From IMG/VR virus record IMGVR_UViG_3300017783_000271, positions 1 to 20,596 of that record: 20,596 nt of DNA. One strand, 5' to 3'. The notes under the pieces are model-generated. The model had not been told where the DNA came from. It searched no databases and saw nothing but the letters and a program-made list of their open reading frames with translations. Below are positions 3,280 to 4,226 of this stretch, in pieces. A program made the position numbers and the translations under genes. Source of the stretch: a virus. How positions within the stretch are numbered: position 1 is the first letter of the stretch; each line of letters starts with the position of its first letter.

Positions 3280-3317
3280 AAAAAATCCCTTCATACCTAT
3301 TTAGGAAGAAGGGATTT
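3280..3317 (-). terminator. Intrinsic terminator / leader hairpin between the oxygenase gene and gp13
   Basis: GAAGGGATTT (3308-3317) and AAATCCCTTC (3283-3292) form a perfect 10-bp stem, with an inner CCTA/TAGG stem (3296-3299 with 3302-3305). On the minus strand it ends in a six-T run (3285-3280). It would stop RNA coming from the oxygenase gene. The same 3' arm carries AAGGGA, the only ribosome-binding-like sequence before gp13, about 13 bases from its ATG. Confidence 0.75.
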
Positions 3318-3980: not shown

Positions 3981-4008
3981 AAAAAATGAGGGTTTAAACC
4001 CTCATTTT
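3981..4008 (-). terminator. Intrinsic terminator after the coiled-coil gene
   Basis: Positions 3983-4008 are a perfect 26-base palindrome: arms AAAATGAGGG and CCCTCATTTT around TTTAAA. Read on the minus strand it is followed by a six-T run (3986-3981), the standard form of a rho-independent terminator. It lies 20 bases past the stop of the 65-residue gene and ends directly at the ATG of the oxygenase gene. Confidence 0.8.
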
Positions 4009-4032
4009 ATCAAACTGTTTTAAAAATGTCAA
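4004..4032 (-). promoter_or_regulatory. Strong sigma70-type promoter upstream of the oxygenase gene
   Basis: On the minus strand TTGACA (4032-4027, a perfect -35) is followed by exactly 17 bases and TAAAAT (4009-4004, five of six matches to TATAAT). Transcription should start near 3997, inside the palindrome at 3983-4008, so this RNA would lack the 5' arm of that hairpin. Such host-sigma promoters drive early genes in T4-like phages, in contrast to the late octamers around it. Confidence 0.65.
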
Positions 4033-4226
4033 CTATCAGATGGTGTTTCTTCTGTAGATGCTTCTTCCTCAGGTTTGTCTTCTAGAAGACCTAGAGTTTC
4101 TAGACCGCCTTCTAGTTTAATCTTATACTCTTTTGCTTTAATAAGGTTTGCTTCGAGTTCAACAATTTGCTTTTCGGTTGTAGCAATTTGCTCTTCAAAG
4201 TTTGTTTTGAGTTGTGCTGGATCCAT
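4029..4226 (-). CDS. 65-residue coiled-coil protein, possible gp57A-like fibre chaperone
   Basis: From ATG 4226-4224 the protein begins MDPAQLKTNFEEQ, followed by an uninterrupted helix to about residue 48 with heptad-spaced I, L and A residues (IATTEKQIVELEANLIKAKEYKIKLEG, broken here into its main turns), then an acidic, disordered tail rich in E, S and T. No membrane segment is seen. T4 gp57A, a 79-residue chaperone for trimerising tail fibres, has the same plan: short coiled coil plus acidic tail. I see no clear residue-level homology, so this is an analogy from shape and position just downstream of the fibre genes. A GTG codon at 4235 could add three residues, but neither start has a good ribosome binding site. 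The TGA stop (4031-4029) lies inside the -35 box of the next promoter. Confidence 0.62.
   Translation of the reverse strand: MDPAQLKTNFEEQIATTEKQIVELEANLIKAKEYKIKLEGGLETLGLLEDKPEEEASTEETPSDS

Follow-up and report, generated by a model that had tools for sequence, protein, structure and literature searches.

A putative fused terminator and sigma70-type promoter upstream of a moron-like oxygenase gene in a T4-like marine cyanophage

The oxygenase insert and the signals upstream of it

The window (the whole stretch analysed here, 20,596 nucleotides, IMG/VR record IMGVR_UViG_3300017783_000271) is part of a T4-like marine cyanophage. Along its minus strand, fibre genes are followed by an 88-aa gene, a coiled-coil gene, a 2OG-Fe(II) oxygenase gene, gp13, gp14, gp15 and the small terminase gene. 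The features of the locus, in the direction of transcription, are:

4262–4255, minus: perfect late promoter box of the T4 type, TATAAATA, preceding the coiled-coil gene
4235–4029, minus: coiled-coil gene (phrog_580, T4-GC 834), 68 aa, upstream of the element
4032–4027, minus: -35 hexamer TTGACA, with the TGA stop of the coiled-coil gene (4031–4029) inside it
4009–4004, minus: -10 hexamer TAAAAT, 17-bp spacer after the -35, overlapping the 5′ arm of the hairpin
4008–3983, minus: terminator hairpin, the perfect 26-base palindrome AAAATGAGGGTTTAAACCCTCATTTT, stem of 11 bp and loop of 4
3999–3995, minus: predicted transcription start zone, inside the hairpin (7 nt past the -10 would be 3997)
3980–3327, minus: 2OG-Fe(II) oxygenase gene, 217 aa, its ATG directly 3′ of the T run
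3317–3283, minus: conserved terminator preceding gp13, its loop holding a late promoter box
3272–2472, minus: gp13, neck protein (head-tail adaptor), the downstream unit

In related phages gp13 directly follows the coiled-coil gene, both in the annotated isolate loci (14/14) and in the IMG/VR loci that carry the coiled-coil gene (79/80). The oxygenase was missing from 93 of these 94 other loci (80 IMG/VR and 14 isolates), and we therefore regard the oxygenase and the element upstream of it as an insert. The GC content of the oxygenase gene (30.3%) is below that of its neighbours (33–40%). The coiled-coil protein has a C-terminus unlike that of its relatives, and the gene now stops at the TGA within the -35 hexamer. 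The sole other carrier of the insert was a sister contig (L018), which shares 98.9% identity with the window along 14.3 kb and has kept the hairpin as well as TTGACA at its 17-bp spacing. The single change in its element, A4007G, gives the -10 hexamer TAGAAT, which still matches the consensus at 5/6 positions and turns one A-U pair of the stem into G-U. Loss of the spacing between TTGACA and the -10 in relatives keeping the gene had been named in advance as evidence against the element; in the only relative found, the spacing was retained.

All signals of the 54-base element lie on the minus strand, at the position given by the initial annotation, whose description of a TGA stop within a perfect TTGACA, 17 bases to TAAAAT, and a TAAAAT overlapping the 5′ edge of a perfect 26-base palindrome ending in T6 was confirmed in each part. 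The -35 matches the sigma70 consensus at 6/6 positions and the -10 at 5/6. The TGA just before TAAAAT, which that annotation did not list, adds an extended -10 (TGn). Sigma70-like matches were common in the window (62), although only four scored 11/12 and just one of these four, the element's own, had TGn. A promoter of at least 11/12 with its -10 abutting a terminator occurred in 0/150 dinucleotide shuffles of the 20.6-kb strand. As an intrinsic terminator, the element has an 11-bp stem with four G-C pairs, a loop of 4 and, with two further T after the palindrome, a run of six (3986–3981) that ends immediately before the oxygenase ATG (3980). The full-length RNA was predicted to fold at -13.8 kcal/mol (z -4.7, 30-nt stretch), whereas RNA from 3998 onward gave 0 kcal/mol and was unstructured by the same computed folding. 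The predicted +1 (3997) is a T, i.e. a pyrimidine, and the closest purines are G3999 and A3995. No Shine-Dalgarno sequence was seen in the nested-promoter RNA before the oxygenase AUG, which the hairpin adjoins.

The gap before gp13 holds a fusion of another kind. The box in the loop of the window's terminator is CTAAATA (3304–3298, minus), and a late box in this gap (CTAAATA or ATAAATA) was present in all of the approximately 90 loci with a readable gap. The stem pairs of this terminator change on both sides between cyanophage lineages. A second late box, ATAAATA (3326–3320, minus), lies directly upstream of the gp13 hairpin; some relatives lack it, and most of the hairpin might still form in RNA started from it. 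Further downstream, gp14 (1343–2470, minus) carries an insert of approximately 95 residues (residues 188–282), whose GGSGY-type repeats give matches to structural protein families of fibres and baseplates; the gp14 proteins of S-PM2 and Syn1 are shorter than that of the window.

Recurrence at psbA and psbD 3′ ends and in cyanophage genomes

The element had been presented as singular. This did not hold, as it is one member of a class that recurs at the 3′ ends of psbA and psbD. In a scan of four genomes, S-PM2 (138888–138914) and S-RSM4 (6233) had this layout at their psbD ends. Syn9 also carries it at the end of psbD (NC_008296, 168325; hairpin GGGGGTC AAAC GACCCTC). A blastn search with the psbD-end stretch of the S-PM2/S-RSM4 type, a query consisting mostly of psbD coding sequence, matched 421 phage records, 412 of them over most of the query. 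We surveyed at least 120 unique psbD ends and at least 129 unique psbA ends, and the fractions given here are of that sample. Among the 120 unique psbD ends listed, a sigma70-like -10 abutted the terminator in 42, a few of which (e.g. L213, L260) are better taken as late boxes, and a late box abutted it in 14. Gaps between the two signals at psbD ends were mostly 0–4 nt, stem pairs changed on both sides, and the next start codon usually lay directly 3′ of the T run. Most psbA/psbD-end elements (loci L146–L265, L443–L553) have the start codon in this position, which leaves no room for a Shine-Dalgarno sequence. A promoter abutted the terminator in 30 of the 129 unique psbA ends listed; a stop codon lay inside TTGACA in 14, nine of which had the full layout. 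The phage late box can stand in for the sigma70 -10 in psbA/psbD-end elements.

A pattern search for all three signals together identified 19 IMG/VR contigs. Besides the window's sister, these were mostly psbA ends (...TAPSIG, with the TGA stop within TTGACA) or psbD ends, and the gene that followed, where readable, was mostly glutaredoxin. These matches align with the window and have in common with it a G before TTGACA and the TGn, neither demanded by the search pattern, from which part of the remaining invariance stems. The window's element fits the psb-end class in having its -10 within 0–4 nt of the stem, a predicted start inside the stem and a T run leading into a start codon. In Sf-CH3, a psbA-end element stands upstream of a 2OG-Fe(II) oxygenase of another subfamily than the window's, and Syn1 has a similar element ahead of yet another 2OG oxygenase.

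The window's element may have been borrowed from psbA/psbD 3′ ends, on the basis of a short similarity that is largely common regulatory consensus. A search with the palindrome matched the sister contig only. Among the distant oxygenase homologues returned, the upstream element was found in none except the sister contig; homologous oxygenases elsewhere lie within operons without it. The element therefore does not track this oxygenase family. Direct descent of the window's oxygenase from the psb-end oxygenases was unsupported (SfCH3_203, 21% identity over 104 aa; Syn1_210, no match).

We then scored sigma70 promoters (cut-off ≥10) around 135 distinct terminators in ten cyanophage genomes. Nine promoters on the same strand as the terminator started inside the hairpin and 22 at 15–29 nt past it, while none started within the 45 nt before it. 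The opposite-strand control gave nine promoters in total, six of them before the hairpin. Three of the nine inside-hairpin starts were psbD ends, hence the nine are not all independent. In the same genomes, 14 terminator loops contained TTGAC, frequently with a -10 at a spacing of exactly 17 bp, compared with an average of 1.1 loops for permutations of the motif. In 1000 trials that swapped downstream parts between terminators, the observed count was not once reached. Examples with the -35 in the loop and the -10 17 bp on, past the T run, are S-H9-2 107894, Sf-CH3 178105, Syn1 184255 and S-PM2 124303 (pieces L120–L315). At S-PM2 136629 (plus, L126), a sigma70 promoter abuts a terminator whose T run passes straight into a late box (TTTTTTTATAAATA), placing three signals within approximately 60 bases. 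The fused registers of these genomes thus extend beyond that of the window and include loops that hold a -35 and T runs followed directly by a late box. Syn9 has the inside-hairpin sigma70 register. Neither T4 (19 terminators) nor KVP40 (48) had a sigma70 start inside a hairpin or a TTGAC loop; in both, however, a late box lies at a terminator or next to one. A general enrichment of -10 motifs just upstream of terminators was dropped, as reversed and complemented motifs were similar in count; scored full promoters alone separate from the controls and bare -10 motifs do not.

Predicted function and competing explanations

We consider it probable, from sequence and comparative evidence, that in this element an intrinsic terminator and a sigma70 promoter are fused and serve a moron-like oxygenase unit, and that it belongs to the psb-end family, from which it was perhaps borrowed. 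Late RNA entering from the coiled-coil gene would form the whole hairpin and end at the T run. RNA polymerase on TTGACA/TAAAAT would start approximately 7 nt past the -10, inside the hairpin, so that the new RNA would lack the 5′ arm and the terminator could not form. This arm-less RNA, predicted to be unstructured, would escape termination and run into the oxygenase ATG. As the gp13 terminator is kept at 3317–3283, RNA from the oxygenase promoter would end there after approximately 715 nt, and the late box in the loop would start gp13 RNA, leaving the oxygenase as an insulated unit within the late structural cluster.

A dual terminator and promoter function is well supported by these sequence comparisons. 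The proposal that one stretch of DNA ends an incoming RNA and starts an arm-less outgoing one gained support from the recurrence of the same geometry, built from different stems, at psbA and psbD ends. The more specific suggestion, that a late RNA would end and an early RNA begin here, is plausible because the coiled-coil gene has a late box (4262–4255) and the nested promoter is of the host type. Cyanomyoviruses are without known genes modifying the host RNA polymerase and without motA/asi (PMC2984593), which means that host sigma70 may stay active throughout infection. Since a shut-off of host sigma70 thus seems unlikely, the phage could produce the oxygenase at all stages of infection. Counting against the preferred reading are the occurrence of the exact locus in only two near-identical contigs, the pyrimidine at +1, the lack of a Shine-Dalgarno sequence, the small number of G-C pairs in the stem (four), the mainly consensus-type similarity behind a psb-end origin and the operon setting, free of the element, of homologous oxygenases elsewhere.

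Passive compaction, in which both signals work with no coupling or timing role and owe their overlap solely to the tiny intergenic gaps of cyanophages, has a little under an even chance of being the better description and is itself compatible with a dual function. The overlap of terminators and promoters in several other registers (-35 in the loop, late box after the T run) fits it. Starts, however, fall inside or after hairpins and not just before them, which suggests that selection has at least favoured sparing the outgoing RNA, even if compaction may still drive the arrangement. The AT-rich genome could also produce an ordinary terminator with a chance sigma70 match, and bare -10s near hairpins were common, including in the reversed and complemented controls; an 11/12 match with TGn, the joint occurrence in 0/150 shuffles and the recurrence of the layout at psbA/psbD ends make this explanation very improbable.

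Two further explanations were considered. One is a translation lock of the kind described for T4 e, soc, 49 and I-TevI, with late readthrough RNA left untranslated and arm-less RNA translated. The T4 precedents (PMC3014915, PMC2988022), the hairpin ending a few bases before the AUG and the folding difference between the full RNA (-13.8 kcal/mol) and the truncated RNA (0) are in keeping with this, but no Shine-Dalgarno sequence is sequestered and the T run marks a terminator; we hold a lock to be rather unlikely, though it could act besides termination. Alternatively, the polymerase might stay on the DNA after the T run and restart at the overlapping promoter. In vitro, bacterial polymerase that has terminated can recycle to whichever promoter lies nearest (PMC11347151), and here the distance is practically zero. 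Such re-initiation would need sigma to be retained or to rebind, and a late polymerase carrying gp55 is not expected at a sigma70 promoter; we judge it improbable.

Relation to known systems and significance

In the T4 e, soc, 49 and I-TevI leaders, a late promoter is nested in a ribosome-blocking hairpin (PMC3014915, PMC2988022). As in those leaders, the window's promoter lies in the region of the 5′ arm, so that a short RNA would lack the arm, as predicted from promoter position and folding, while upstream RNA would form the hairpin. In contrast to them, the nested promoter is sigma70-type and not late (late-box versions occur at psbA/psbD ends), and the hairpin is an intrinsic terminator. 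The element is thus one that works like the T4 leaders without being a member of their group. RB49 and S-PM2 have overlapping early and late promoters, the early sites being sigma70-like (PMC2984593), and the S-PM2 psbA leader combines early and late sites with an inverted repeat (PMC5931967). These T4-like phages, too, pack their transcription signals closely together; they involve promoter-promoter overlap or a leader hairpin, whereas here the predicted start is inside a terminator. We found no description of promoters nested in cyanophage terminators in the open-access literature searched, although one may exist elsewhere.

A moron is an ORF that sits as an insert between phage genes and brings a promoter and a terminator of its own (term per PMC1524935), and the oxygenase insert fits this definition. 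The gene is absent from relatives that keep both flanking genes (93/94), has a promoter of its own (4032–4004), is flanked by terminators, the downstream one (3317–3283) being common with gp13, and has a distinct GC content, below that of its neighbours. It differs from a standard moron in that the upstream terminator contains its promoter and the downstream terminator is that of gp13, with the gp13 late promoter.

More broadly, there is perhaps an even chance that marine T4-like cyanophages have a general family of fused terminator-promoters that insulate accessory inserts, and that a psb-end version moved with an oxygenase into the late head-tail cluster. The registers defined for this proposed family are the 5′ arm with a -10 or a late box, the loop with a late box, and the loop with a -35. 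In cyanomyoviruses, the early and middle phases of transcription have been described as unclear (PMC2984593), and the timing and insulation of auxiliary genes in packed cyanophage operons are poorly known. A fused terminator-promoter at psbA/psbD ends would predictably mark transcript boundaries in many genomes, and would account for the way in which late structural genes can accommodate a foreign gene and remain undisturbed.
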